From Gemmiger sp. An120 (GTDB lineage: Bacteria; Bacillota; Clostridia; Oscillospirales; Ruminococcaceae), in NCBI RefSeq assembly GCF_002160955.1, contig NZ_NFLN01000013.1:1-64000 (forward strand): a stretch of DNA of 64,000 nucleotides. The letters run 5' to 3'. This document shows positions 1-27,842 of this stretch, piece by piece (within the stretch, counting starts at the first letter, position 1; every line of letters starts with the position of its first letter). Made by a program: the position numbers and the translations under genes. The notes under the pieces are model-generated. The model was not told the origin of the DNA. It saw only the letters and a program-made list of their open reading frames with translations, and did no database searches.

Positions 1-344
1 CGGTAATCGCCATGGGCTGGCTCAGGTCAGAGGTAATCATGAACGCGATCACCGATACCAGGGCAGGCACCACACCCAGCAGGTGCAGCGGACCACCGCG
101 GCCGGTAAACCGCATGCCCCGGAGGAGATCCCCGAGGAGGAGACCGCCCAGGCCGCGGCCGGCAGCTGGGCGCTGCTGGACCTGATCCTGGCGATCCTGA
201 CGGTAGCCGTCGGCCTGGTGATGCTGGGCATGCGGTTTACCGGCCGCGGTGGTCCGCTGCACCTGCTGGGTGTGGTGCCTGCCCTGGTATCGGTGATCGC
301 GTTCATGATTACCTCTGACCTGAGCCAGCCCATGGCGATTACCG
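1..344. repeat. 119-bp perfect inverted repeat (fold-back) at the window edge
   Basis: Bases 1-119 are the exact reverse complement of 226-344, with a 106-base unique spacer (120-225). The match stops at base 120/225. The right arm lies inside a good reading frame for a membrane anchor, while the left arm carries the same sequence backwards and truncates that gene. Perfect arms of this length with no coding logic on the left are typical of a contig-end fold-back artefact, though a true palindromic rearrangement cannot be excluded. Confidence 0.93.
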
Positions 345-10088: not shown

Positions 10089-11237
10089 TCAGTCGGGAAA
10101 TTCCGGGCCCTGGATCACCCGGTAAACCGCCGCCGACACAAATTCCGCCGGCTGCAGCGAGGCCAGCGCCCCCTCGGCCCCCGCTTTGCCCTCAAACAGC
10201 GGCCACAGCCGCCGGGCAGGCACCGGATCCCAGGCGTCCACAAACGCCTGCTCCAGTTCCTCCAGTGTGTAGGCCCGGGCCGGGTCCACCCCGGCGGTCA
10301 GCGCCGCCAGTTCCAGCGGCGCCAGCGCCCGGTCGGCCTCCGGGCCCAGACGGTTCAGCGCCAGCCCCTCGGTCAGCGCCAGGGTGGGCCAGCGCCGCAG
10401 CACCGGGCTCAGCACTTCCGCATAGGGGGCCGCAAACGCCCGTTCCGGATCTTCGGTGCGGATGCCGTAGGCCACCCCCCGCAGCCGCCCGAACGCCCGG
10501 TAGGCGTCCAGATACCCCAGCGCGATGTTCCGCCGGGCGGTTTCCGGCTCAAACTGCAGGATGCTGCCCAGTTCCCAGAAACTGCGGATCAGGGTGGTGG
10601 GCAGGCCCGACCGGTTTTTCCGGGTGATGCCCACACCGTCCACATCCACCGCCACCAGCTCCTCCGCACCCATGCGGGCCGCCAGGGCGATGGGCATATT
10701 GTCGTTGTACCCCCCGTCGATGAATTCCACCCCGTCGATCTGCCGGGGCCGGAATGCCGGAAAACAAGCCGCCGATGCCAGCAGGTACTGGGCCAGCTGC
10801 CCCTGGGGAATCTCTTCCAGCGTCAGCTGGCGGGGTTTCAACCCCCGCAGCTCCACCGTCACCAGCCCGAACCGGACAGGGGAGGCCCGCAGCGCGTCTT
10901 CATCCAGAACCCGCTGCACAATGCCCTCCAGCGGGGTCACGTCCAGCCCGCCCTGTTCCACAAACTGCCGCAGCATCACCCCCGAGGGATCCGCCGCCCG
11001 GTCGCCGGGCAGGGCCATCACGTCGTGGCTGTTGATGGTCAGCCACATGTCCCGGGCCACGTCGGTCAGCCCCAGGGCAAACATCGCCCCGTTCAGGCAG
11101 CCCACCGAGGTGCCCGCGATCACACCGGGCTCCCAGCCCATCTCCTGCAGGGCCTGCCAGACACCTACCTGGTAACTGCCCCGGGCCCCGCCGCCGGCCA
11201 GAACCAGCCCCCGCACCGGGGTCTCCCGCCGGGTCAT
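10089..11237 (-). CDS. patatin-like phospholipase family protein
   Basis: 382 residues. Patatin-like lipid acyl hydrolases use a Ser-Asp dyad. All elements are present: the oxyanion loop GGGARG (15-20), nucleophile Ser44 in GTSVG, and Asp174 in the IDGGYNDN block. The rest (about 230-382) is Ala/Leu-rich and helical with no recognised domain; there is no signal peptide, so a cytoplasmic or membrane-surface location is likely. GGGAGGTG precedes the ATG. It probably forms a unit with the enzyme I-like gene downstream. The substrate is unknown. Confidence 0.85.
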   Translation of the reverse strand: MTRRETPVRGLVLAGGGARGSYQVGVWQALQEMGWEPGVIAGTSVGCLNGAMFALGLTDVARDMWLTINSHDVMALPGDRAADPSGVMLRQFVEQGGLDVTPLEGIVQRVLDEDALRASPVRFGLVTVELRGLKPRQLTLEEIPQGQLAQYLLASAACFPAFRPRQIDGVEFIDGGYNDNMPIALAARMGAEELVAVDVDGVGITRKNRSGLPTTLIRSFWELGSILQFEPETARRNIALGYLDAYRAFGRLRGVAYGIRTEDPERAFAAPYAEVLSPVLRRWPTLALTEGLALNRLGPEADRALAPLELAALTAGVDPARAYTLEELEQAFVDAWDPVPARRLWPLFEGKAGAEGALASLQPAEFVSAAVYRVIQGPEFPD

Positions 11238-11538
11238 GGGCGCACCTCCCGGAAACAGGATAATTTAGCAAAGTATTGCGTTATCATATTGAATTGAAAC
11301 AAGTGTACCATATTTCACCCGAAAAAGAAAGAGCCAAAGCCGCCCGCCCGGGCGATCCGGGCTGTTTACAGGGCCAAAGTCTGTTTTTCTTATTATAACA
11401 CACTGTTTTGGCGGGTGTGTGTCGGAATCATTAACCTGCAAAGATTTTCCGTGCCCCGGCCGCCGGCAAAAAGATTGACGCGGCCCGCCCGGTTTGGTAT
11501 AATTAAGCGTAGCCCGCGCCGCAGCGGGCTCCATACAG
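11238..11538. other. intergenic gap before the tRNA-Ser locus
   Basis: No gene visible. The left part is AT-rich and must hold the patatin promoter, although no clear consensus stands out; the right end carries the tRNA promoter. Confidence 0.5.
11475..11503 (+). promoter_or_regulatory. strong promoter of the tRNA-Ser locus
   Basis: TTGACG (11475-11480), a 17-base spacer and a perfect TATAAT (11498-11503). The first tRNA-Ser-like 5' half starts 35 bases downstream, so this was probably the native host promoter of the tRNA gene. Confidence 0.8.
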
Positions 11539-11918
11539 GGAGCAGCACTCAAGTGGTCGAAGAGGCGTGACTCGAAAGTTTGAGGCTCTCTGGCTGATTC
11601 GTCCGCGGGGTTTGGCTTCACACGGGGCTGAATCCGGGGTGTGTATCAAAATTTTTCCCGCTTATCTTGCATCGAAATCTTGCATTTGTCCGAAGGACGC
11701 GCAAGGCGGTGCTGGAGAAAATAGAATATGGAGAGTTGTCCGAGTGGTCGATGGTGCAGCACTCGAAAGACTCTCGCCCTTTGGTCAATTTGTCCGCAAG
11801 GAATGGCTTAACAGTGGGCTTTTCCTTGGGTGCGCATCCGATTTTTCCTGCGTTATCTTGCATCGAAATCTTGCATTTTTCCAAATATCTTGCAAGGCGG
11901 TGCTTGAAAATTAAATAT
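11539..11918 (+). repeat. two tandem 190-bp units, each beginning with a tRNA-Ser 5' half
   Basis: Units begin at 11539 and 11730, and the intact tRNA at 11919 is the third (spacing 191 and 189). Each begins with GGAG..., has a Ser-type D-arm (AAGTGGTCGA or GAGTGGTCGA) and reaches an anticodon-loop-like ACTCGAAAG, after which tRNA similarity is lost. The remainder of both units shares a GTCCGC...TGGCTT segment, then ATCTTGCA repeats (near 11663-11682 and 11857-11892) and a GCAAGGCGGTGCT segment just before the next tRNA half. They look like remnants of earlier insertions at the same site. Confidence 0.7.
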
Positions 11919-12009
11919 GGAGACGTATCGAAGTGGTCGTAACGAGAACGACTCGAAATCGTTTTGTCCAGAGATGGGCACGTGGGTTCGAATCCCACCG
12001 TCTCCGCCA
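11919..12009 (+). tRNA. tRNA-Ser (anticodon CGA)
   Basis: 91 bases including an encoded CCA. The acceptor stem GGAGACG pairs with CGTCTCC, the anticodon arm AACGA-CTCGAAA-TCGTT gives anticodon CGA, a long variable arm typical of Ser follows, and the T-arm is GTGGGTTCGAATCCCAC. It is the integration target: the integrase gene lies 77 bases downstream and reads towards it. Confidence 0.93.
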
Positions 12010-12086
12010 GAAAACGGCGCTATGTCGAGGTTTATCGGCATAGCGCCGCTTTTTATTCTCCTGACGCCGACAGCATTTTTCTTGCC

Positions 12087-13274
12087 TTACCACCGGCTTT
12101 CGGGAAGTTCTGCGGGCAGGGCCAGGGCTTTTTCCATTGTGGCGGCGCTCAGCTGTTTCGACTGGGAATCCAGATGGGCGTAGATGTTCGCCGTGGTGGA
12201 GATGTCGCTGTGCCCCAGCCATTCCTGAATCTGCTTCATGGGTACCCCCTGTTTCAGCAGCAGGCTGGCACAGGAGTGGCGCAGATCGTGGAAGCGGATA
12301 TGCCGCAGACCATGTGCTTTCAGGAGCTTTCCAAAATTCTCGGAAACTGCATTGGGAAGAATGAGATTGCCCATCTCATCTACGAATAGATATCCTTTGT
12401 ATTTTTTGTTATAGCAGTTTCCGCAGAGCCGCTCGTTGTATTCCTGCTGTTCCTTCAACTCCTTCAGCCGCTGGGCAAAGCCTGCCACCAGTGGCAAAGT
12501 ACGCAGGCTGGAACTGGTCTTGGCCCGGTCAGCCTGGATGAGAATGTGCTTGCCTTCAATATTCGCACTGGTAACAATGTGCCGGATGGTCAGCGTTCCA
12601 GCCTCAAAGTCGATGGCGTCCCACCGCAGGCCCAGCACTTCGCTGCGGCGCAGTCCATAAAATGCCGCAAATAGGATGATTAGTTCCAGACGACTGCCTC
12701 GGGCCGCCTGAAATAACTCCTCCATCTCCTGGGCGGTATAGTAAGATGCCATATACTTCTGCAACTTTGGCCGCTCTACTTTGTCCACCGGGTTGCCGGG
12801 GATGAGGTCCAGCTTTACCGCATACTTCAAAGCCTTGTGCATGTTAGCATGCTGCTTGATCACGCTTGTGGCTTTGAGGGTCTCCAGCTCATGAAGGTAG
12901 AAGCTCTGGATATGGCTGGCTTTCAATCCTCCCAGCGTGATGCCGGTGGGTTCGAAGTACGGCACGATATGGTCCTTCACGTTGAAACAGTAGCTGGACC
13001 AAGTGGTTGGTTCCACAGAAGTTCGGATGATTTTCAGCCAGTAAAGCATATAATCGCTGAACAACATGTCCGGACTTAGGTCGGTGGAACGATCGGGTGC
13101 AGGCGGGGTAAAGCTATGGCGGGCCTGCCGCAGCAGATCCTCGGCCTTTTTCTTGTTGCCTTTCACCGGCAGTCCGGTACCCTGCCATTTCTGCACCCGC
13201 TTGCCGTCGGGGCCTTTGTAGCTGAGCACAATGTAAAAATACCCGTTCTTTTCGGTGAGTCGACCAGATACCAT
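12087..13274 (-). CDS. tyrosine recombinase / integrase of the mobile element
   Basis: 395 residues from the ATG seven bases after AAAGGAGG; a second ATG six bases upstream touches that site. Domains: an N-terminal arm-binding region (about 1-60, Tn916-Int-like), a SAM-like core-binding domain (about 75-165) and a catalytic domain (about 185-380). Catalytic residues: Arg in YGLRRSEVLGLRW (about 209), HDLRH (His329, Arg332), His355 in LGHSD and Tyr365 in ANIYAHLD. It lies at the tRNA-Ser 3' end and reads towards it, as usual for tRNA-targeting elements. It would cut at the tRNA and use the ATCTTGCA repeats as arm sites (inference). Confidence 0.95.
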   Translation of the reverse strand: MVSGRLTEKNGYFYIVLSYKGPDGKRVQKWQGTGLPVKGNKKKAEDLLRQARHSFTPPAPDRSTDLSPDMLFSDYMLYWLKIIRTSVEPTTWSSYCFNVKDHIVPYFEPTGITLGGLKASHIQSFYLHELETLKATSVIKQHANMHKALKYAVKLDLIPGNPVDKVERPKLQKYMASYYTAQEMEELFQAARGSRLELIILFAAFYGLRRSEVLGLRWDAIDFEAGTLTIRHIVTSANIEGKHILIQADRAKTSSSLRTLPLVAGFAQRLKELKEQQEYNERLCGNCYNKKYKGYLFVDEMGNLILPNAVSENFGKLLKAHGLRHIRFHDLRHSCASLLLKQGVPMKQIQEWLGHSDISTTANIYAHLDSQSKQLSAATMEKALALPAELPESRW

Positions 13275-13441
13275 GGACATTCCTCCTTTGTTTGGTTGAT
13301 GGTATTCTCCGGGTCCGACACAAGAATACCCGGAAGTTGTCTCGAAAGCTATTCACAAAACTGCACAAGGTCACGCGCCTGGAATGGGTACACATCCACC
13401 AGATTACCCGCGCCGATTCGTCCGGCGCGGGTGTTTTGGCT
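13275..13441. other. spacer between integrase and relaxase genes
   Basis: Contains the integrase ribosome site and a hairpin ACCCGCGCC...GGCGCGGGT (13406-13432) followed on the + side by GTTTT. A TCTCGAAAG at about 13341-13349 resembles the anticodon-loop core. This stretch is one of the few places where an origin of transfer could lie, but no known oriT is recognised. Confidence 0.4.
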
Positions 13442-14815
13442 TTAGCGGATTCGGTCTTTGTTCCGGTGTTTCTGGCGTGACTTGTCCCGCTCCTGCTGGC
13501 GGCGGTATTCCTCCCGGCAGGCGGCGGTCTTTTCCACCTTCTCGATGATACGTTTGGCGGCTGCATCCTCTTTGCGCAGGGCGGCGATTTGACGGTTCAG
13601 TTCCGCCCGCCGCTGGGCTGCCCCGGGCGGTGGCTCCTTCCACCGCAGCTGCCGGGCGCAGTCCGCCCGTTCTTGGCAAAGGGCGGTGATTTGTCCCGCC
13701 AATGTTTCCTGGTGGGCTTTTACCTCCGCCACCGTGGAAAAGCCCCGCCGACTGGTCAGGTGCAGTTCCTCCAGCGTCTTGTCGACGTCCCGCCACAGAG
13801 CATTGATCTCCGGCCAGTTCACCCGGGGCGCGGGCCGTTTCGGGTAGATGCCCAGCTGGTAGCAGTAGTAGAGATACAGCCGGAACAGGCTGCTCTTTTG
13901 ATGGGTGAACAGCCCTCGGCACCGATATCGCCGTGCGGGCGGATGATATGCGGGCCGGGGCCGCAGGCTATACTTGGGGTTGAAGTTCAGATCATAGAAG
14001 TGGAGGCCGTACCGGGCAAAGTTTTTGGCCAGCGCCCGCTCCAGGGCGGGCCAGTCGTATTCCGCTCCCAGTCGGTACACCCGCACCGCCCGGCCGCCGT
14101 CCAGCGAACGGAGGGTGGCGTATTTGCGCCCCTCCTCCCGCCGCCAGAGATACCCCTGCTGCCGCAGCACCCGGGCGAAGTCCCGCTCGGTGCTGGTCTG
14201 GGTCAGGGCCTTGCGGATGGCCTGACGCATCGCCTCATACCGGGTCTGGCCCGTGCCCTCGTAGAGAGGCCGGGGCTTTTTGCCGCCGGGCTGCCGGATA
14301 ACCGACAGGGCGTGCTCCCGGCAAAGCTGATCGGACACCCGGCGCATCTCCCGGTATTGATCTCGGCGCTGCTCGTACTTCTTGCCGTCCACATAGGACA
14401 CCGCATTGATGACGAAGTGGTTGTGCAGGCAGCCAGTGTTCAGATGGGTGGCCACCAGCACCTGAAATCGCCCGCCCCACACCCGGCGGGCCAGCTCTAC
14501 CCCGATGGAGTGGCACTGCTCCGGAGTCACCTCTCCAGGCTTGAAACTCTGGTAGGCGTGCATTGCCACCACTCCTTCGGTCTTGCCGAACTGCTCCTGC
14601 ACCGCCCGCATCTCCGCCCAGGCGGTCCCCGGACGGCAGTGGACGCCGCTCACCAGCTGGGCCGTTTCCCGCAGGGTGGTTTTGGCGTCGTTCTCCGCGT
14701 AGTGCAGCGCCTGGGCCAGACCGCTGTACTCGGTCTTGTCCGGGTTGGCGGCGTAGTCCACCACCCGGCGCAGGCTGTCCCGCACCGGCCAGATTTTAGT
14801 GGTCGCCAGAGGCAT
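13442..14815 (-). CDS. relaxase / mobilization nuclease
   Basis: 457 residues. A relaxase nicks the transfer origin and stays bound to the 5' end of the transferred strand. The metal site is HLNTGCLHNH (His122, His131, His133), and candidate nucleophile tyrosines lie near the start (VDYAANP, about 20). The C-terminal third is highly charged, with a likely coiled coil (about 360-440). ATG overlaps the end of the mobC-like gene by 20 bases, so the Rep, MobC and relaxase genes form one leftward operon. No coupling protein or type IV secretion gene is present, so the element needs a helper. Confidence 0.9.
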   Translation of the reverse strand: MPLATTKIWPVRDSLRRVVDYAANPDKTEYSGLAQALHYAENDAKTTLRETAQLVSGVHCRPGTAWAEMRAVQEQFGKTEGVVAMHAYQSFKPGEVTPEQCHSIGVELARRVWGGRFQVLVATHLNTGCLHNHFVINAVSYVDGKKYEQRRDQYREMRRVSDQLCREHALSVIRQPGGKKPRPLYEGTGQTRYEAMRQAIRKALTQTSTERDFARVLRQQGYLWRREEGRKYATLRSLDGGRAVRVYRLGAEYDWPALERALAKNFARYGLHFYDLNFNPKYSLRPRPAYHPPARRYRCRGLFTHQKSSLFRLYLYYCYQLGIYPKRPAPRVNWPEINALWRDVDKTLEELHLTSRRGFSTVAEVKAHQETLAGQITALCQERADCARQLRWKEPPPGAAQRRAELNRQIAALRKEDAAAKRIIEKVEKTAACREEYRRQQERDKSRQKHRNKDRIR

Positions 14816-15092
14816 CCTCCTTCCGCAAGAGGCTGTCCAGCAGCCCTTCCCGGCAGCGGCGGTACTCTTCCGCCAGAGGCGGATCCAACCGGGCCAGCTG
14901 ATCGGTCAGGTTGTCCATCCAGGTCAGGTAGCTAAAAAACGCCTGGGGCGGGTGGAACCGTGGCTCATGCCCCAGCGCCCGCTGGCGCAGATATTCTGAC
15001 AGGGTCAGCCCACACCGGCCGGCCGCTGTTTGGATTCGTTGTTTCTCGGCGGGGCTCACCCGCACATTGAGGCCCACGCTTCTTGTTCTCAC
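14796..15092 (-). CDS. MobC-like mobilization accessory protein
   Basis: 98 residues from a GTG start behind GGAGGTG; longer frames lack a ribosome site. The N-terminus (VGLNVRVSPAEKQRIQTAAG followed by LTLSEYLRQRALG) is a ribbon-helix-helix-like DNA-binding segment typical of MobC proteins that help the relaxase melt the transfer origin. The C-terminal half is helical. The start overlaps the Rep gene stop by 4 bases (GTGA) and the end overlaps the relaxase start by 20 bases. Confidence 0.8.
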   Translation of the reverse strand: MRTRSVGLNVRVSPAEKQRIQTAAGRCGLTLSEYLRQRALGHEPRFHPPQAFFSYLTWMDNLTDQLARLDPPLAEEYRRCREGLLDSLLRKEDASGDH

Positions 15093-16252
15093 AGGGCCAC
15101 CTCCGCACGGGGGTTCGGGGCGCTCCCCGTACCGGCGAAGGGTTGCCCGGCGGCAACACAAAGCCCATGCTTGTTACCCCCAAGCGCCTCCTGTGACGAT
15201 GATGACGGTGCTGACGGTGTTTCTGGGGTATACCCGCCGTCCGGGGGTGTGCCGGATTTATCGTCATCCGCGTCATCACCGTCATACCAGAGTCGGAGCT
15301 GCCGGGCGCTGGCGGTGCGGCGGCTCTCGCAGCGGATGCCCAGGGGCGCCAGGTCGGTGGGATAAAACTCTACCAGTTTGCGGGTCAGCTGGTTGGGCTG
15401 CAGATCGGGGATGCCGGCGGCGGCCAGCAGCTCGGTGGCGGTGCCCTGCCAGCACTTCTGCCGCTTCACAAAGTCAGCCACCGCCCACACACAGGCGGGC
15501 ACGGCCTTGCGGGCCAGCTCCTCGGAGGTCTCCTCCTGCTCCAACTCCCAACGGCAGTCCTCCCAGCGCAGGTCCAGGGCGCGGCTCTCCATGTCCCGGC
15601 CGGTCACGTGCAGCTGGGCGTTCAGGCTCATCCGCCGGCGGCGCAGCACCCAGCTGGTGTCCGCCCCGCCCATCAGGGCCACTGAGCCGGAAATGTCATC
15701 GAAGGGATCGTCGGTCCGGTCCTTGCGCTGGTGGTGCACCAGCAGAATGCCGATGTTGTGCCGGTCGGCCAGAGATTTCAAGGTGCTCATATCCCGGTAG
15801 TCGCAGGCGTAGACGTTGCCGTTGGCATCGCCGGTGCGCACCTTTTGCAGGGTGTCGATGACCACCAGCCCGGTGTCCGGGCGGACGGCCAGGAACTGCT
15901 CGATCTGTTCCTCGAGGCCGTGGCCCAGCCCCTCGCAGGCGGTCTGGAAATAGAGGTTGTCCGGCATCTCCTCCTCGCTCAACCGGAACAACCGGTTCTG
16001 GATGCGGCTGTATGTATCCTCGAGGCACAGGTACAGCACTGACTGGGTGCGGACCGGCCGTCCCCAGAGTTCTCCACCTTTGGCCAGCTGCAAACACAGC
16101 CAGAGGCAAAGCCAGCTTTTACCGATTTTGCTGCCGCCCGACAGCATGGACAGCCCACCGGACAACAGATCGGGAACGAGCCACCGCACCGGCGGCAGCG
16201 GAGTGATGGAAAGAGTTCGCGCGTCAATGGGTTCGAATTTTGTCAAAAGCAT
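15089..16252 (-). CDS. RepA-like RecA-fold ATPase (element replication)
   Basis: 387 residues. Walker A is GGSKIGKS (39-46), Walker B is the LVVIDTL stretch, and a sensor-like LLVHHQRKD follows: the layout of hexameric RepA/KaiC-fold ATPases found in small plasmids and mobilizable elements. The C-terminal 130 residues carry a helical domain and a low-complexity Ser/Pro/Asp tail. ATG 16252 sits two bases after AAGGAGAA; a TTG at 16246 (spacing 8) is a credible alternative start. It heads the mob operon and suggests the element can replicate after excision, with the iteron-like repeats upstream as possible origin. Confidence 0.82.
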   Translation of the reverse strand: MLLTKFEPIDARTLSITPLPPVRWLVPDLLSGGLSMLSGGSKIGKSWLCLWLCLQLAKGGELWGRPVRTQSVLYLCLEDTYSRIQNRLFRLSEEEMPDNLYFQTACEGLGHGLEEQIEQFLAVRPDTGLVVIDTLQKVRTGDANGNVYACDYRDMSTLKSLADRHNIGILLVHHQRKDRTDDPFDDISGSVALMGGADTSWVLRRRRMSLNAQLHVTGRDMESRALDLRWEDCRWELEQEETSEELARKAVPACVWAVADFVKRQKCWQGTATELLAAAGIPDLQPNQLTRKLVEFYPTDLAPLGIRCESRRTASARQLRLWYDGDDADDDKSGTPPDGGYTPETPSAPSSSSQEALGGNKHGLCVAAGQPFAGTGSAPNPRAEVAL

Positions 16253-16430
16253 TTCTCCTTTTCCGTTGGTTTGATCGGATGGGGCGGGATGCGGCCGCAG
16301 CGGCCCAAAACAGGCCTGCAAAACGGCCTTGACCCCGCCTGCTGGGGAAAACGCCCGAACCGCCTGTCAGGCCCCGCACAGGGCGAACATCGGGCGGACA
16401 GCGGCGAAGGGCGTTTTGCGGCGCAAAGGG

Positions 16431-16923: not shown

Positions 16924-16942
16924 CGGTGGTAACGTGGTCGGG

Positions 16943-17365
16943 AAAAAGTCCTCTCGTTATATACCAGTAGCTCAGACCCTCGAAAACGAAACACCTTCCA
17001 AAAAATTTTCGAAAGTTTGGCAAATTTGACGGGAAACCGACCATAGAAAAAGTCCCTCGTTATATCCATGTAACACAGACCCCCTCAAAACGGTCACCCT
17101 TCCAAAAATTTTTTTAAAGTTTGGCGAATCTGACGGGAAGACGATTACAGAAAAAGCCTTCTCGTTATATACCAGTAACACGGACCCCCTTCAAAATTTC
17201 ACTGTTCCAAAAAGGAATTAAGAAATCTGGTAATTTAACGGCAAGTTGGCTGCAGAAAAAGTCCTCCCATTATATACCAGTAGCTCAGACCCCCTCAGAA
17301 TTTCACCCTTCTAAAAAATTTTCAAAAGTTTGGCGAATCTGACGGAAGTCTGGCCGCAGAAAAAA
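16943..17365. repeat. four tandem 104-105-bp repeats
   Basis: Units begin at 16943, 17047, 17151 and 17256, and the first bases of a fifth lie near 17360. Each starts AAAAAGYCYTC, then CGTTATATACCAGTA (or a close variant), CAGACCCCCT, CTTCCAAAAAATTTT, AAAGTTTGGCGAATCTGACGG. Units differ by substitutions and small indels. No gene overlaps them. The period equals ten helical turns, which suits cooperative protein binding. Confidence 0.88.
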
Positions 17366-17699: not shown

Positions 17700-17865
17700 T
17701 TACTGACTTTCTATGATTGTAGCTTTTTTCCCTTTCTTCTTCGTCCCCATCGCCGTGATCATGGCATAATGCTCCTTGCTTTTCCGGGTAATGCTGTTGT
17801 AGTCCTCGGAGGTGAGGAACTCCAGCAGCCACTCCTTGGGCACCTTATAGGCATGCTGGTAGTAT
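17696..17865 (-). pseudogene. truncated 3' copy of the element HTH gene at 26.3 kb
   Basis: Bases 17738-17861 match 26281-26403 at roughly 90% identity in the same orientation. The leftward translation YQHAYKVPKEWLLEFL...KEHYAMITAMGT matches the C-terminus of the protein at 26257-26889 and then ends in its own Lys-rich tail and stop. The 5' part is missing. Together the two copies flank the 8.4-kb cargo as direct repeats. Confidence 0.85.
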
Positions 17866-20233: not shown

Positions 20234-22012
20234 ATGTATTATTCCAGCGGTAATTACGAAGCCTTTGCCCGTCCCAGAAAGCCCGAGGGCGTGGACAACA
20301 AATCCGCCCACATCATCGGCACCGGCCTTGCGGCTCTGACTGCCGCCTGCTATCTGGTTCGTGACGGACAGCTGCAGGGTCAGAACATCCACATCTATGA
20401 GAAAGACCCCATTCCCGGCGGTGCATGCGATGGCTGGCAGTACCCCGATGTAGGCTATGTCATGCGGGGCGGACGGGAGATGGATAACCATTTCGAGGTC
20501 ATGTGGGATTTGTTCCGCTCCATTCCGTCCATCGAGACAGAAGGGGTCAGTGTTCTGGACGAATACTACTGGCTGAATAAGAAAGACCCCAACTACTCCC
20601 TCTGCCGGGCAACCGTCAACCAGGGTCAGGATGCCCACACCGACGGCAAGTTCGGTCTGTCCGACAAGGCTGCAATGGAGATCATGAAGCTGTTCTTCAC
20701 CCCCGATGAAGACCTGTACGATAAGCGCATCACGGATTTCTTCGATGATGAGGTGCTGAACTCCAATTTCTGGCTCTACTGGCGCACCATGTTTGCCTTT
20801 GAGAACTGGCACAGCGCTTTGGAAATGAAGCTGTATCTCAAGCGCTATATCCACCATGTGGGCGGTCTGCCGGACTTCAAGGCTCTGCGGTTCACCCGTT
20901 ATAACCAGTACGAATCTATGATTCTGCCCATGGTCAAGTATCTGGAAGGCTTCGGTGTCCAGTTCCACTATAACACCAAGGTGGTCAATGTGGAGTTCGA
21001 CATCCAGCCCGGTAAAAAGCAGGCAAAGCGTATTGAGCTGCTGTCTGAGGGCAAACATCAGTTTGTTGACCTGACGGAAAATGATCTGGTGTTCATTACC
21101 AACGGTGGCTGCGTGGAGAACGCCACCATGGGTTCCCAGAACACCGTGGCACCCTTCAACCCCGAAATCAAGCCCGGCGGCGGCTGGGATATGTGGCGCA
21201 GAATTGCTGCACAGGATCCTTCCTTCGGTCATCCCGACAAGTTCTGCCATGATCCTGAGCAGTCCAACTGGATGAGCGCCACCGTCACCACACTGGATCA
21301 GAAGATCATTCCCTATATCAAGAATATCTGCAAGCGTGACCCCTTTACCGGCGGCGTGGTTACCGGCGGCATCGTGACCGTGAAGGATTCCGGCTGGCTC
21401 CTGAGCTGGACCATCAACCGTCAGCCCCAGTTCCGGAATCAGCCCAAGGATCAGTGCCTGGTGTGGGTTTACGGTCTGTTCTCCGACAAACCCGGCGACT
21501 TCGTGAAGAAGCCCATGCGGGAGTGCACCGGTAAGGAAATCTGTATGGAGTGGCTGTACCACATCGGCGTGCCGGTGGGGGAGATCGAGGAGCTGGCCGA
21601 GCACAGCGCCAACACTGTGCCGGTGATGATGCCCTATATTACCGCTTTCTTCATGCCCCGTGCCGCCGGTGACCGTCCTGATGTGGTGCCCGAGGGTGCT
21701 GTGAACTTTGCGTTCCTGGGTCAGTTTGCCGAAACCAAGCGGGATACCATCTTCACCACCGAGTATTCCATGCGTACCGGCATGGAGGCTGTCTACACCC
21801 TGCTGGACATCGACCGTGGTGTGCCCGAGGTCTGGGGCAGCGTCTACGACATCCGTGATCTGCTGAACGCCACCATCCAGCTTCGGGACGGCAAGCCCCT
21901 GACGGAAATGAACCTGGGTTTCAAGGAGAAAATGGTGGTCAAGAAGCTGCTGGAGAATATCCGCGGAACAGATATCGAAAAGCTGCTGAAAGAATATCAT
22001 GTAATTGAGTGA
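20234..22012 (+). CDS. ohyA: oleate hydratase
   Basis: 592 residues, the family length (MCRA family). This FAD-binding enzyme adds water across the cis-9 double bond of free oleic, linoleic or palmitoleic acid, giving 10-hydroxy acids. FAD-binding GTGLAAL starts at residue 29. The RGGREM loop carries Glu82 and the KLYLKRYIHH segment has Tyr201, the same numbers I recall for the catalytic pair of Staphylococcus aureus OhyA. AAGGAGG precedes the ATG. It heads an operon with a radical SAM enzyme and metK. Higher GC than the lipase next to it hints at a mosaic cargo. Confidence 0.96.
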   Translation: MYYSSGNYEAFARPRKPEGVDNKSAHIIGTGLAALTAACYLVRDGQLQGQNIHIYEKDPIPGGACDGWQYPDVGYVMRGGREMDNHFEVMWDLFRSIPSIETEGVSVLDEYYWLNKKDPNYSLCRATVNQGQDAHTDGKFGLSDKAAMEIMKLFFTPDEDLYDKRITDFFDDEVLNSNFWLYWRTMFAFENWHSALEMKLYLKRYIHHVGGLPDFKALRFTRYNQYESMILPMVKYLEGFGVQFHYNTKVVNVEFDIQPGKKQAKRIELLSEGKHQFVDLTENDLVFITNGGCVENATMGSQNTVAPFNPEIKPGGGWDMWRRIAAQDPSFGHPDKFCHDPEQSNWMSATVTTLDQKIIPYIKNICKRDPFTGGVVTGGIVTVKDSGWLLSWTINRQPQFRNQPKDQCLVWVYGLFSDKPGDFVKKPMRECTGKEICMEWLYHIGVPVGEIEELAEHSANTVPVMMPYITAFFMPRAAGDRPDVVPEGAVNFAFLGQFAETKRDTIFTTEYSMRTGMEAVYTLLDIDRGVPEVWGSVYDIRDLLNATIQLRDGKPLTEMNLGFKEKMVVKKLLENIRGTDIEKLLKEYHVIE

Positions 22013-22025
22013 TAGAAGCTTCACT

Positions 22026-22048
22026 GGGGGGAGGCGTTGCCTCCCCCC
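22026..22048 (+). terminator. hairpin between ohyA and the radical SAM gene
   Basis: GGGGGGAGGC (22026-22035) pairs with GCCTCCCCCC (22039-22048); no T-run follows. It more likely trims or attenuates the transcript than ends the operon. Confidence 0.6.
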
Positions 22049-22070
22049 CCTTATATATGGAGAGATAAAG

Positions 22071-23441
22071 ATGTCATTTACAAATCAACTAAAAAAAGCA
22101 ACTCTGCGTACTGCTTTTGGCTACTTGGAGAAAAATCCGGAAGAAAATGCTCTGAAACTGATGTCCTGGGTGGATAAGCTGGCTGGCGATGGCCCAGACA
22201 GTTTCCCAGTCCAGCGCGCGGCAGTCCGTCAAGTGCTGGAAGACCCGCAGAACAACATGTATCAGCTCGTTATGAACATCCTGAAGGAGACGGATTCGGA
22301 GGTTCTAAAGGCCACCTTTGAAAATTTCTTCCTCAACGCGAATATCATCGGTTGGCCAAAGCAGGAGGAATACCGGAAGAAATATAACTGCAATATTCCT
22401 TGGGCCATTCTGCTTGACCCTACCTCTGCCTGCAACCTGCACTGCACCGGCTGCTGGGCCGCGGAATACGGCAACAAGCTGAACCTGACCTTTGACGAGA
22501 TCGATTCCATTATCACCCAGGGCAAGGAAATGGGCGTATATATGTACATATATACCGGCGGTGAGCCTCTGGTTCGCAAAAAGGACCTGATCGCCCTGTG
22601 TGAAAAGCACAGCGACTGCCAGTTCCTTTCCTTCACCAACGCCACATTGATCGACGAAGCTTTTGCAAACGAGATGCTCCGGGTGAAGAATTTTATCCCT
22701 GCCATCAGCGTGGAGGGCTTTGAGTCTGCCACCGATGGCCGCCGGGGCAACGGTACCTACCAGAAAGTGATTCAGGCAATGGCAATCCTGAAGGAGAAGC
22801 ATCTGCCCTTCGGCCTGTCCTGCTGCTACACCAGCCAGAATCTGGATTCTATCAGCTCCTATGAATTTATTGATCAGATGATTCAGTGGGGTGCTCGGTT
22901 TGTCTGGTACTTCCACTACATGCCCGTGGGCAATGACGCAGTGCCGGAACTGCTGCCCAATCCTGAGCAGCGGGAATTCATGTATCACCGGATCCGGGAC
23001 ATCCGGGCTACCAAGCCGATCTTCGCCATGGACTTCCAGAACGATGGCGAGTATGTAGGCGGCTGCATTGCCGGTGGACGGCGGTATCTGCATATCAACG
23101 CCAACGGTGACTGTGATCCCTGCGTGTTTATCCACTATTCCAACGCCAACATCCGGGACATGAGCCTGCTGGATGTGCTGCGCAGCCCCATTTTCATGGC
23201 CTATCACGATGGGCAGCCCTTTAACGATAACCATCTGCGTCCCTGCCCCATGCTGGAGAATCCGGAAAAGCTGCGGGAAATTGTGAAAGCTACCGGCGCT
23301 CATTCCACAGACCTGCAATCCCCGGAAACGGTGGATCACCTGTGCGATAAATGCGAGGCTTACGCAAAGAACTGGACCCCCACCGCCACCGAGTTGTGGA
23401 GCTGCAGCTGTGCGAAGAAAAATGGAGAAGCGGCAAAATGA
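22071..23441 (+). CDS. radical SAM enzyme with C-terminal Cys-rich (SPASM-like) region
   Basis: 456 residues from the ATG behind GGAGAG; the upstream in-frame start overlaps ohyA and has no ribosome site. The [4Fe-4S]/SAM motif is CNLHCTGC (Cys121, 125, 128), followed by the GGEP block (YTGGEPLV, about 163-170). The N-terminal 115 residues are helical. The C-terminal part has at least eight Cys ([28 protein letters not shown]), likely auxiliary clusters. ATGA overlap with metK shows tight coupling. The family resembles AhbD/SPASM-type enzymes; with ohyA upstream a lipid-chain substrate is an attractive but unproven idea. Confidence 0.88.
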
Positions 23442-24586
23442 CAACCTTCTTTACCTCTGAAAGCGTCACAGCGGGACACCCGGATAAGGTATGTGACCAG
23501 ATCGCCGATGCCATTTTGGATGCCCTTTTGGAAAACGATCCCCATTCCCATGTAGCCTGCGAAGTAACTGCCATTCCCAACGGGATCCACATTTTCGGCG
23601 AGATCACCTCGGCTGCCCGTGTGGACTATGCCGCTATTGCCCGGCAGGTGGTTCGGGATATCGGGTATGTGAAGCACGGCTATGGCTTTGACGCAGACAC
23701 CTGCCAAATCACAGTGGATATCCATGAGCAATCCCCCGATATCAACATGGGTGTGGAGAAGACGGATTCTATGGAAAACGGCGCAGGAGATCAGGGCATG
23801 ATGTTCGGCTACGCCTGCCGGGAAACAGACAGCCTGATGCCCCTGCCCATTGAGCTTGCCCATAAACTGACAAAGCGTCTGGCCTATGTGCGGCGGGAAG
23901 GAATCCTTTCCTATCTCCTGCCGGACGGGAAAGCTCAGGTCACCGTGGAATACCGGGATGGCCTTCCTGTACGGGTGGACACTGTGGTGGTTTCGTCCCA
24001 GCATGAAGCGGAGATATCTATGGATAAGCTCCGGGAAGATGTCCTTCTTCATGTCATCCGCCCGGTGATTCCGGAAGCCATGCTGGATGCCGACACGAAA
24101 TACTTTATCAATCCCACAGGCCGTTTCTGCATTGGCGGTCCCGCCGGAGACAGCGGCCTGACGGGCAGGAAGCTGATCGTGGACACCTACGGCGGCTACG
24201 CCCGGCATGGCGGCGGCGCGTTCTCTGGTAAAGATCCCTCAAAGGTCGACCGAAGTGGTGCGTATATGGCCCGGTACTTGGCGAAGAATGTGGTTGCGGC
24301 GGGATTGGCGGATCGGTGTGAGATCCAGATCAGTTACGCCATCGGCGTTGCCCAGCCGGTATCCCTCCTGGTAGACACCTTTGGTACGGGAAAGCTCCCG
24401 GCAGACCGGATCCGGGAACTGATTCTTAAAACGGTTGACCTGCGCCCCTCTGCTATCATAGACCGCCTTTCCCTGCGAACACCGTTTTACAGACACACCG
24501 CAAGCTATGGTCACTTTGGCTCAAATACTGCGGAATTACCTTGGGAACAGACAAACTTGCCGCAGCTTTGGCAGGATATCATCTGA
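23438..24586 (+). CDS. metK: S-adenosylmethionine synthetase
   Basis: 382 residues, family length. It makes SAM from Met and ATP. The ATP/Met motifs [13 protein letters not shown] (13-25), [12 protein letters not shown] (about 109) and [16 protein letters not shown] (about 249-264) are intact. It overlaps the radical SAM gene by ATGA, so SAM production is co-translated with a SAM-using enzyme. The chromosome must also have a housekeeping metK, so this is probably a dedicated accessory copy carried by the mobile element. A hairpin follows. Confidence 0.95.
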
Positions 24587-24606
24587 TTTCGTGATAGAAG
24601 GTCCTA

Positions 24607-24649
24607 ATAGCCGGATTGCCCCAAGGGTTGCATTGGGCAGTCCGGCTAT
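24607..24649 (+). terminator. hairpin after metK
   Basis: ATAGCCGGATTGCCC pairs with GGGCAGTCCGGCTAT (one G-U pair, 13-base loop). The downstream T content is low, so the terminator is moderate. Confidence 0.6.
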
Positions 24650-24705
24650 CTGTGTTATGGAGGGGTCAAAGTCCTGTCGGTTTAAAATGAAAAGGGGGAC
24701 TTATT

Positions 24706-25380
24706 ATGGACTTTGAAAGAATCCTGCAAATGACGACAAGTGAGCGTAATCTGGCGCTCTTACAGGACGAGGCTTTCGTGGATGATGTGACAGAGTTTCT
24801 CACAATCCGTCAGTTGTACAATGCTGCAATTAAGCAAGTAAGGACCAAACTTGAGATTCTTAATGATGGATTCCAAGTAGAGCACTGCCACAATCCTATC
24901 CACCATATTGAATGTAGGCTGAAGTCTCCAGGAAGTATGCTCGAAAAGCTCAGACGAAAAGGATACCCCATAGAAATGCAATCCCTTCGTGAGGGTATTC
25001 TTGATATTGCTGGAGTTCGGGTCGTGTGCAATTACCTAAATGATGTAAATCTAGTCGCTGACCTGCTCCTTTCTCAAGATGACATTCGTTTGCTTAAGAA
25101 AAAGGACTTTATTTCTAATCCAAAGTCAAACGGATACCGGAGTCTCCACCTAATTGTTTCAGTTCCCATTTTCTTGGCGGGGACAACAGAACACATTCCT
25201 GTTGAGATCCAAATACGGACAATTGCTATGGACTATTGGGCGAGTTTAGAGCATCACCTAAAATACAAGACTGAAAACGATGTGTCAGATTCCCTTAAAT
25301 GTCGTCTGAAACATGATGCAGATTTGCTGTCTGCAATTGATGCCGATCTGCAAGATATTTTTTGTCAAATGAATGCTTAG
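24706..25380 (+). CDS. small alarmone synthetase (RelQ/RelP-type GTP pyrophosphokinase)
   Basis: 224 residues, the size of single-domain small alarmone synthetases. It makes ppGpp/pppGpp from ATP and GTP or GDP without a hydrolase domain. The RelA_SpoT synthetase motifs are visible: GVRVVCNY (about 102-109), KSNGYRSLHL (about 142-151) and the EIQIRTIAMDYWASLEH block (about 168-184). Short helical segments flank the fold as in RelQ. It lacks the Rel hydrolase, TGS and ACT domains. On the element it may link the host stringent response or growth state to the lipid cargo, or act as stress or anti-phage cargo; neither is shown. Confidence 0.9.
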   Translation: MDFERILQMTTSERNLALLQDEAFVDDVTEFLTIRQLYNAAIKQVRTKLEILNDGFQVEHCHNPIHHIECRLKSPGSMLEKLRRKGYPIEMQSLREGILDIAGVRVVCNYLNDVNLVADLLLSQDDIRLLKKKDFISNPKSNGYRSLHLIVSVPIFLAGTTEHIPVEIQIRTIAMDYWASLEHHLKYKTENDVSDSLKCRLKHDADLLSAIDADLQDIFCQMNA

Positions 25381-26256: not shown

Positions 26257-26889
26257 TCAGCTCTTCTTGGGCTTCCAGGGCTTCGTTCCCACCGCGGCGA
26301 TCATGGCGTAGTGCTCCTTGCTCTTGCGGGTGATGCTGTTGTAGTCCTCGGAGGTGAGGAACTCCAGCAGCCACTCTTTGGGCACCTTATAGGTGTGCTG
26401 GTACGGGAACGCCTTTAACCTCCCCTCGGTGCACCAGCGGCTGACGGTACGGGAAGCGTAGCCGGTGACCCGGGCGATTTGGTGAGCATCCAGCACATCA
26501 GGCTGGCGGGCCAGAAGGTTCTCATACCAGCGGCGCACCCGCCGGCGGGTTGCGTCGGTGAGCAGGAGCGCACCGTTCAGGCCGAAGGCCGGGGGCTTGT
26601 GGTTCGGGTAGTTCTTGTACCAGCCGCTGGGCGGGGTGTAGTACTCCGGCTCCGTGAGGCGGCGGCGCAGGTAGGCGGCCACGTCGGCCTTGGCAATCTT
26701 GTAGCAGCGGGTCTGTTTGCCGGTGTTTTCGCAGGGCACCAGGCCGCTCTGCAGCAGGTAGATGGAGGTGCGGGTGCCGATGCGGCAGGCTTTGCGGAAG
26801 TCGGTGCGGCCCATGGGGTCGGGGTAAGGCGCCAGCAGGTCCTGAATTTCCCGCTCCAGAGTGTCCTGAAAGAGATTGTTTTTCTTCAT
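26257..26889 (-). CDS. element-encoded protein with two helix-turn-helix regions
   Basis: 210 residues from the ATG ten bases after AAAGGAG; upstream extensions are not needed. Two excisionase/MerR-like DNA-binding modules can be seen: residues about 27-70 (MGRTDFRKACRIGTRTSIYLLQSGLVPC, then CYKIAKADVAAYLRRRL) and about 137-185 (LDAHQIARVTGYASRTVSRWCTEGRLKAF, then YKVPKEWLLEFL). The tail ends KPWKPKKS. A truncated second copy lies at 17696-17865. It probably regulates or helps excise the element. It is transcribed towards the cargo. Confidence 0.75.
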   Translation of the reverse strand: MKKNNLFQDTLEREIQDLLAPYPDPMGRTDFRKACRIGTRTSIYLLQSGLVPCENTGKQTRCYKIAKADVAAYLRRRLTEPEYYTPPSGWYKNYPNHKPPAFGLNGALLLTDATRRRVRRWYENLLARQPDVLDAHQIARVTGYASRTVSRWCTEGRLKAFPYQHTYKVPKEWLLEFLTSEDYNSITRKSKEHYAMIAAVGTKPWKPKKS

Positions 26890-27842
26890 TTTTGGGGTTC
26901 TCCTTTGTTTTGAATTTGGACCCGGAGAACCACTATGTTTTCCACCAAAACAATACAAATTGTTGAAACCCGGAAAGATACTACACAAAATTGGCCCGAA
27001 ATCTTGCATTTGGCAAATCCCGTTTTCCGGCGGCGGGGTGAAAATCCAGTGTTCATCCGGCAAAACGGCCCCCAATTATCTTGCATGAAATCTTGCATTT
27101 TTCCAAAAAATCTTGCCAAACGGGGCCAAAACGGGGGATGCCGGTTTGATTCGTACTAAAGCCATTTTTCGGGCTTTTGCCTATCGAAAACGGCTTGATA
27201 CCGCCGAAAAATCGGGGACAAACTGACCAGTTTTGACCTGCCCTGTTCCACAAGAGCCTTTCCGGCACAGGACTCGAAAGCACGGAAGACGTCAACAGTA
27301 GCCTAAGGTCCAAATTTTTGCTTTGGTTATTTATTGCTTAAAGAATTGTAAGTTTAGAGAGTTTAGAGAAAGTGCATGGCCAACGATTATGTCATCATTT
27401 GGAAATAGACGGCCCAAGATATAGCTTGTTTATCTTGTCTCTTGAAACAATCATTTAAAGATGGAGACTATATATTTTTTCTGTGTTGTGATATTCTAAA
27501 AATATAGGCTGCAAAAAAGAAACAATTCCCTTTTATGGATGGTTTGCATAATGAAGGCGGCGAACGGTGCTCTAAAAGGAGAATGCTCCATTTACAGAGA
27601 CGCAGAGGAGGAAATTTGAATTTCCAAATCAAGCCAAGTGCATACTATATCCATTTGTTCGATTATGGATCGATAAAGTGCGGACTGCCAAGAATTAAGG
27701 CATATGGCTTCTCTTCCTTCACAGTCGTCCACAAACGACTGTTCCAGAGTAGAGCGACCACAGCTTTGATACATACGATGCCATCTTTGTCTGCAACTGA
27801 CTATTTCCTGCTCTGCCTGGACGGCATACAGACTTGGTAGTT
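26890..27842. other. right end of the element and gene-free junction
   Basis: No gene is supported. It contains ATCTTGCA-type repeats at about 26999-27116 and an ACTCGAAAG core at 27272-27280, which mark the probable right end. An AT-rich stretch (27300-27540) and then degenerate sequence follow up to the IS256 remnant. A leftward open frame around 27592-27894 is not recognisable. Confidence 0.6.
26999..27116. repeat. integrase arm-site-like ATCTTGCA repeats, right end
   Basis: ATCTTGCA occurs near 27001, 27079 and 27090, with a near copy (ATCTTGCC) near 27110. The block ATCTTGCAT-GAAATCTTGCAT-TTTTCC closely matches the left-end blocks at 11663 and 11857. The spacing between the paired copies (11-12 bases) is alike at both ends. 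Confidence 0.75.

Follow-up and report, generated by a model that had tools for sequence, protein, structure and literature searches.

Stacked tRNA-Ser(CGA) halves in Clostridia suggest conjugative-type elements that replace the tRNA gene they split and thereby renew their landing site

Background

The closest described system is tRNA-dependent lysogeny, reported for the mycobacteriophages Fionnbharth, Gaia and others (Guerrero-Bustamante and Hatfull 2024, PMC10865867), and, as far as the available part of that report goes, its logic is also that of the locus analysed here. In Fionnbharth, according to the same excerpt, the phage tRNA shares sequence with a protein gene of the opposite strand, whereas in the present case the tRNA is adjacent to the left crossover and to the integrase gene (int), holds the core, and is split by later elements with the formation of stacked 5' halves; moreover, the two carriers examined here are ICE/IME-type elements of Clostridia. 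A similar substitution is outlined in the accessible portion of a study of Sinorhizobium meliloti prophages, where the host tRNA is replaced by one resembling that of an unrelated species, and its authors liken this to tRNA-dependent lysogeny (PMC11476347). That case differs in involving prophages of Alphaproteobacteria, and the same portion of the description contains no stacked 5' halves. The anticodon-loop islands catalogued by Islander share with the present locus a crossover in the anticodon loop, a tRNA and a fragment at the ends, and tandem arrays, but in the excerpted account the attP fragment restores the gene, whereas here the whole gene is replaced (PMC4383910). Accretion of ICEs, IMEs and CIMEs is likewise comparable, in that later elements enter an earlier att site and composite or decayed elements result; however, accretion as summarized in the part available reuses the att site at the element end (PMC5704250), whereas the site newly offered to later elements here is a whole tRNA gene inside the element.

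The locus analysed here is an array of tRNA-Ser halves in a stretch of 64,000 nucleotides (the window), namely positions 1-64000 of contig C5 of the genome designated G000. To our knowledge, tRNA-dependent integration has been described in print for phages only, and within the partial literature searched, mostly titles and abstract openings, no published description of the arrangement in ICEs or Clostridia was found. As far as this literature shows, the new aspects are ICE/IME-type carriers, their presence in Clostridia of two orders, a tRNA placed at the element's left end, and target renewal together with the stacking of halves.

Results and discussion

The array in the window and its flanking elements

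The window presents, in order, a promoter, half A, spacer u1, half B, spacer u2, the complete tRNA C and int (Table 1). Direct reading of the sequence agrees with the first-pass annotation in finding three units about 190 bp apart (191 bp, then 189 bp, from start to start) with differing Ser-type 5' halves, all of which terminate in ACTCGAAA; units 1 and 2 are 71% alike over 168 nt. The sole tRNA recognized by ARAGORN in the window is tRNA-Ser(CGA) C, so that only the third half belongs to a complete gene, as had been claimed, and the next core sits in its anticodon loop; the Rfam tRNA model gave here the only match above its gathering score in the region searched (11200-12400). The placement of the first half behind a promoter also holds, in that a probable sigma-70-like site precedes it. 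A chance origin of the halves is excluded, the 5'-half pattern being found upstream of the tRNA at 58 of 67 loci but in none of 1460 420-bp stretches drawn at random from related loci. The genome contains 11 tRNA matches of at least 80 nt, of which the array's is the only Ser(CGA); the other Ser tRNAs have the anticodons GGA, GCT and TGA.

Table 1. Coordinates of the array and of element E2 in the window
Feature	Position	Strand	Details
Sigma-70-like site, probable host tRNA promoter	11475-11503	+	TTGACG-17-TATAAT; 11/12 consensus
Half A, orphan 5' half (GGAGCAG...)	11539-11577	+	39 nt; ends in core ACTCGAAA
Spacer u1, element left end with ATCTTGCA repeats	11578-11729	+	homologous spacers in G001, G002, G003
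Half B, orphan 5' half (GGAGAGT...)	11730-11768	+	39 nt; ends in core ACTCGAAA
Spacer u2, left end of E2 with ATCTTGCA repeats	11769-11918	+	block recurs in G033
Complete tRNA-Ser(CGA) C, E2-borne	11919-12009	+	ARAGORN; 5' half 11919-11958 (GGAGACG..., 40 nt)
Intrinsic-terminator-like hairpin after tRNA C	12015-12048	+	sequence prediction
Tyrosine integrase of E2	12087-13280	-	397 aa; PF00589 E 2.6e-31, PF14659
MobA/VirD2-type relaxase of E2	13442-14815	-	PF03432 E 2.4e-39
AAA_25 ATPase of E2	15089-16321	-	domain match
HTH_17 gene, right end of E2	26257-27075	-	domain match
Right end of E2	27001-27279	+	sequence read; ATCTTGCA repeats followed by core ACTCGAAA (27272-27279)
Decayed tRNA-Ser 3' half, A-type	27280-27332	+	z 4.2 for A-type; z -0.8 and 0.3 for B-type

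The ATCTTGCA repeats are putative integrase arm sites: across the 94.6-kb contig searched, all 11 plus-strand copies lie in u1, u2 or the two right ends, and four minus-strand copies lie elsewhere. The element E2, with boundaries at 11769 and 27279, combines an integrase with a relaxase, and no mating-pore protein was detected among the nine plus one E2 proteins checked, which suggests an IME-type element; its AAA_25 ATPase is presumably RepA-like. A second right end at contig positions 91435-92490 is 90% identical to 26262-27315 (1056 bp); both right ends finish with GACTCGAAA and contain ATCTTGCA repeats (27001-27097 and 92174-92270). The intervening E1 (27280-92453) yielded no PF00589 integrase and, being without an integrase of its own, is therefore decayed or composite.

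Behind the second right end, at 92454-92506, lies a tRNA-Ser 3' half with the acceptor CTGCTCC, which pairs 7/7 with the acceptor of half A and 4/5 in the anticodon stem. The two are thus the parts of one native tRNA-Ser(CGA) gene, now 81 kb apart. Joined in silico, they are called as tRNA-Ser(CGA) by ARAGORN, and half A joined to the 3' half of C gives no tRNA call. Of the earlier proposal that the 5' halves were captured from former hosts, the part that stands is that the later halves came from outside; half A, with its distant 3' partner, is native.

Several other features of the region were recorded. The cargo of E2 (20234-25380) encodes an MCRA-family protein, which we take to be an oleate hydratase, a radical SAM/SPASM protein, a SAM synthetase and a protein with a RelA/SpoT domain. 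Repeats about 104 bp apart and 74-80% alike occupy 16942-17364, immediately ahead of the low-GC stretch of E2. The right-end HTH_17 module recurs in incomplete form at 17739-17861 and at contig C5 positions 77249-77674 and 81211-81357, and these copies may stem from additional elements whose cores were lost. Two C69 peptidase genes, 87% alike, lie within the island (contig C5 67794-69315) and just past the native 3' half (92692-94210). Window positions 1-344 match their own reverse complement at 84%, possibly an assembly artefact as this is the contig end. Close to where the island ends (L032:9080-12214), a protein of 1044 aa is encoded that combines TPR repeats with a SUFU domain.

The left boundary of the element

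A scan of GTDB species genomes for the integrase gave 238 confirmed relatives, of which the best 80 were taken; the closest named relatives among these are from Gemmiger (Clostridia, Oscillospiraceae) and Candidatus Fournierella. At 69 of these 80 loci a tRNA-Ser(CGA) adjoins int, at most 2.5 kb away on the expected side; it is absent at the other 11, some of which are cut by contig ends. An orphan 5' half was found at 58 of the 67 loci having at least 230 bp upstream and, by pattern, at none of the remaining nine; these counts come from a relaxed pattern, a first, stricter one having given 21/67. The gap between core and tRNA is 120-180 bp in 56 of the 58 orphan-bearing loci, and no part of the complete tRNA extends outside the interval from orphan core to int.

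Integrase distance is strongly correlated with spacer distance (Mantel r 0.782, 0/999 permutations, 56 loci), but not with the distance of the orphan halves (r 0.065, 96/999, 56 loci) or of the 120 bp of host-side DNA (r 0.032, 169/999, 55 loci). The spacer following the integrase, with the orphan and the host side not doing so, argues that the element begins at the core of the orphan half. In the stricter set of 21 loci the coefficients were 0.31 for the spacer, 0.16 for the resident tRNA and 0.00 for the orphan. The resident tRNA is weakly linked to the integrase (r 0.129, 3/999) because whole tRNA genes vary among near-identical elements. The sequences flanking ACTCGAAA differ on both sides, attB overlaps the tRNA gene, as in integration of tyrosine-integrase elements at host tRNAs, and the common core is short, with the tRNA not restored at the junction. 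The suggestion that the units are gene-less remnants fails as a rule, the spacer correlation marking them as left ends whose bodies lie downstream of the tRNA. A general reading as remnants of excised elements was thus rejected in favour of left ends of int-bearing elements; a gene-less unit may still be the right description of B, since the partner to which the 3' half at 27280 is similar is that of A.

The arrangement recurs beyond the window. A search for the uninserted site within the genus found none: all three relatives seen have an array, with differing sets of halves (B-A-C in G001, A-A in G002, a decayed half followed by C in G003). The comparison with other genomes that had been proposed shows that A- and B-type halves occur there; for example, the L130 spacer, whose first 14 nt are identical to u1, is followed by a complete B-type tRNA. 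In another genus (G033), u2 and tRNA C are joined at the core to a different promoter and half (GCAGCGG), and on another contig the matching 3' half (CCGCTGC) is preceded by the same right-end sequence. Across the order, the 5'-half pattern is present in 266 of 394 genomes, with at least two matches in 64, where a single match may be an intact tRNA and pairs may be non-adjacent.

Distant cognate 3' halves

Since insertion of an element splits the tRNA, a cognate 3' half must remain elsewhere. Pairing was assessed in a non-random set of genomes with both a readable orphan and an isolated 3' half, comprising 28 isolates, with identical copies within a genome counted once, G221 added by hand, and the isolate of G003, which has no readable orphan, excluded. 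A same-genome orphan pairs 12/12 with 21 of the 28 isolates and at least 11/12 with 24. The corresponding figures are 36 and 115 of 896 for orphans of other genomes, and 2 and 3 of 27 for the resident 5' half of the same genome. Even unusual acceptors are matched, namely GCAGCGG with CCGCTGC, GGACAGG with CCTGTCC (two genomes), and GCAGAGG with CCTCTGC. All ten joins of orphan and isolate were called tRNA-Ser(CGA) by ARAGORN, vs 6 of 18 wrong joins, all six from three genomes with similar types. On the same contig, orphan and isolate are separated by 67 kb (G105), 40 kb (G457, on a 2.9-Mb contig of Lachnoanaerobaculum sp. OBRC5-5), 27 kb (G398), 25 kb (G401), 20 kb (G430) and 3.6 kb (G440); a further pair 28 kb apart in G300 is not discriminating.

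For four of the 28 isolates no orphan pairs at 11/12 or better (one in G044, two in G344, and one in G434, which reaches 10/12), and pairing of the G117 and G456 isolates peaks at 11/12. A first 3'-half pattern overlooked T-arms with GAGTTC; the relaxed search yielded the isolates of G457 and G401 and the unmatched one of G044. Long downstream stretches were examined for nine arrays: a cognate isolate is present in two (G457, G401), a poorly cognate or non-cognate one in two (G117, 78.5 kb, one scan; G044, 60 kb), and no isolated 3' half was found in five (G451, 60 kb; G446, 42.5 kb; G138, 40 kb; G126, 26 kb; G463, 20 kb, one scan). Six orphan-bearing genomes are without an observed isolate (G001, G002, G138, G126, G446 and G451), four of them over 26-60 kb downstream. 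Given these absences, an element body is demonstrated for some orphans and not for each.

Nesting, unit loss and exchange

In G398, whose array has three halves, a single isolate was found, and its match is the inner orphan, in agreement with nesting. A second integrase with 58% identity to the query comes directly after the isolate of G117 (whose contig is also that of L184, Merdimmobilis hominis An559), the arrangement expected of an inner junction; this isolate pairs 11/12 with the outer orphan and does not match the inner one. The inner 3' half of G000 (27280) is A-like, so the simple order A, B, C fails there, and the simplest account is one extra event, either the arrival of u1-B with E2 or the loss of an A-type unit.

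Unit loss is apparent in G003, whose sole spacer is u1-like in its first 90 alignment columns (0.87-0.97 vs 0.58-0.60) and u2-like in its last columns (0.97-1.00 vs 0.73-0.77), with the switch inside the identical arm-site block, a pattern that points to loss of a unit through homologous recombination in the shared block. No signal of decay with age was seen in the comparison of outer with inner orphans (12 lower scores, 11 higher, 4 ties), and scores are alike for orphans (60.2) and residents (60.0). As the orphans are no more decayed than the residents, they do not look like fossils, and the term used for them in the first-pass annotation is too strong; they may be restored upon excision.

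Elements that are otherwise nearly identical were also observed to have very dissimilar complete tRNA-Ser(CGA) genes between conserved flanks (L148 vs L149 and L150; L186 and L194 vs L191 and L162). The small differences in the latter comparison reach about 25 bp upstream, and L147 and L188 differ downstream of the tRNA as well. Arm-block recombination can explain the tRNA exchange in the Gemmiger group but not in the pairs of the L148 and L186 type.

Competing explanations

At least one orphan half is present in 93 of 108 distinct arrays, with two orphans in 22 and three in 5, many of the loci having been chosen for several halves. Such multiplicity, together with tight spacing classes (180-199 bp in 84 of 125 spacings, 78 bp in 8), would also be expected if the 190-bp units were small mobile cassettes, each an arm-site spacer with a 5' half and no gene-bearing body, moved into and out of cores by an integrase acting in trans. 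Unit B of G000, with no cognate 3' half, and the five of nine long stretches in which no isolated 3' half was seen fit this possibility, which we nevertheless consider unlikely: the spacer follows int and is situated at the border of elements that encode it, 21 of the 28 isolates pair exactly with an orphan, and the arm-site recombination in G003 accounts for unit loss with no need for unit mobility. The 78-bp spacings represent a second unit class (a 38-nt spacer and a 40-nt half; L081, L090, L097, L116, L118, L157 and L177), which perhaps belongs to another integrase type.

Far less probable is that these are ordinary anticodon-loop islands, which carry a partial tRNA and rebuild the gene by exchange of halves. 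The accessible part of the Islander account (PMC4383910) catalogues islands in which a fragment restores the gene, and a second element in G440 with another integrase fits that type; yet in the integrase clade studied here the complete tRNA is located entirely between orphan core and int, and the orphan pairs 7/7 with the resident acceptor at 13 of 58 loci, against 54 of 58 for the resident's own 5' half, so fragment exchange by an attP tDNA fragment was rejected for this clade. In G440 itself (Faecalibacterium hattorii; L239, L240, L282-L283), an isolated 3' half is followed by this other integrase (41% identity) and occurs once more 18.5 kb on, a layout suggestive of a canonical fragment-exchange element into which one of the new type has inserted.

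Local tandem duplication of the tRNA gene followed by decay, with no mobile elements involved, can practically be dismissed, since, for all that the units are similar, head-to-tail and subject to homologous exchange, half types differ within an array, the spacer starts at the core, and the distant location of the cognate 3' halves contradicts it.

Proposed mechanism

The reading that we favour, and hold to be very probable, is that a family of tyrosine integrases in Clostridia splits tRNA-Ser(CGA) at an 8-bp core, supplies a whole replacement, and so renews its target. The anatomy of the array, its left boundary at the core, the distant cognate pairing and the recurrence of the arrangement are apparent from sequence; excision and integration activity, use of the promoter and a requirement for the tRNA are inferred. 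The integrase would recombine two copies of the core, one on the circle (right end - ACTCGAAA - spacer) and the other, identical in all eight bases, in the anticodon loop, and the host tRNA would be cut in two and not rebuilt at the junction. What the element carries is a whole tRNA-Ser(CGA) gene, adjoining int and in most cases 140-150 bp in from the left end, and not, as had been supposed, a 5' half brought with each insertion. Its tRNA would come to lie about 190 bp downstream of the old gene's start, behind the promoter of the split gene, from which it would probably be transcribed. As this tRNA contains the same core, the landing site would be renewed; a second element would then split the first element's tRNA, leaving the 5' half in place and the 3' half behind the second right end. 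The claim that the halves record insertions at one site is thus retained.

With respect to transcription, no promoter was predicted in u1 or u2 of G000, and one terminator was predicted, 3' of the complete tRNA, although promoter-like and terminator-like sites are about as numerous when the local DNA is shuffled (means 0.9 and 1.4). Across loci, a promoter-like site precedes the orphan at 31 of 59 (shuffled, 55/590) and occurs in the spacer at 14 of 60 (shuffled, 54/600). Because such sites are commoner before the orphan than in the spacer, read-through from the host promoter into the element tRNA is likely for most loci. Ten of the 14 spacer sites lie 84-88 bp ahead of the tRNA, and spacer sites may be real in one clade; terminator-like hairpins are present in 13 of 60 spacers (shuffled, 59/600). 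UCG can possibly be read by tRNA-Ser(TGA) through wobble, and since G000 has such a tRNA the need for the carried one may be partial.

Range of carriers

The G457 element encodes an integrase (PF00589), a relaxase (PF03432), a coupling protein (PF02534), a TraG-type/T4SS ATPase (PF19044) and ArdA, and to judge from these genes it is an ICE-type element. A temperate phage identity was rejected for both E2 and the G457 element, as both have a relaxase and the latter has T4SS proteins. Phages may carry the arrangement too. Three unannotated human fecal records are filed as Bacteriophage sp.: L296 (MT836101.1) combines a related int with an adjacent complete tRNA-Ser(CGA) and two orphan halves, and of the other two (L297, L298) one has the tRNA alone and one an isolated 3' half. 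The phage collection contained three records at 60-80% identity, viral contigs two distant matches (23-24% identity), and plasmids none at 60% identity or above.

Conclusions

We lean, with less assurance than for the mechanism itself, towards regarding this as a distinct strategy of conjugative elements, in which whole-target replacement and takeover of the promoter would create a self-renewing landing pad. Successive insertions would be entered in a stacked ledger of mirror order, left-hand 5' halves being answered by cognate 3' halves at the right, which recombination at cores and arm sites would erase, shuffle or reduce to gene-less mini-units, and the host's only tRNA-Ser(CGA) would reside on a mobile element. 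The finding extends tRNA-dependent integration from phages to conjugative-type elements of Clostridia. If correct, the order of insertions would be readable from sequence and testable, and element ends would be exact where fragment-based island finders may miss them. A host translation gene would now be on mobile DNA, and the chromosome would keep a partly erasable stack of its past insertions.
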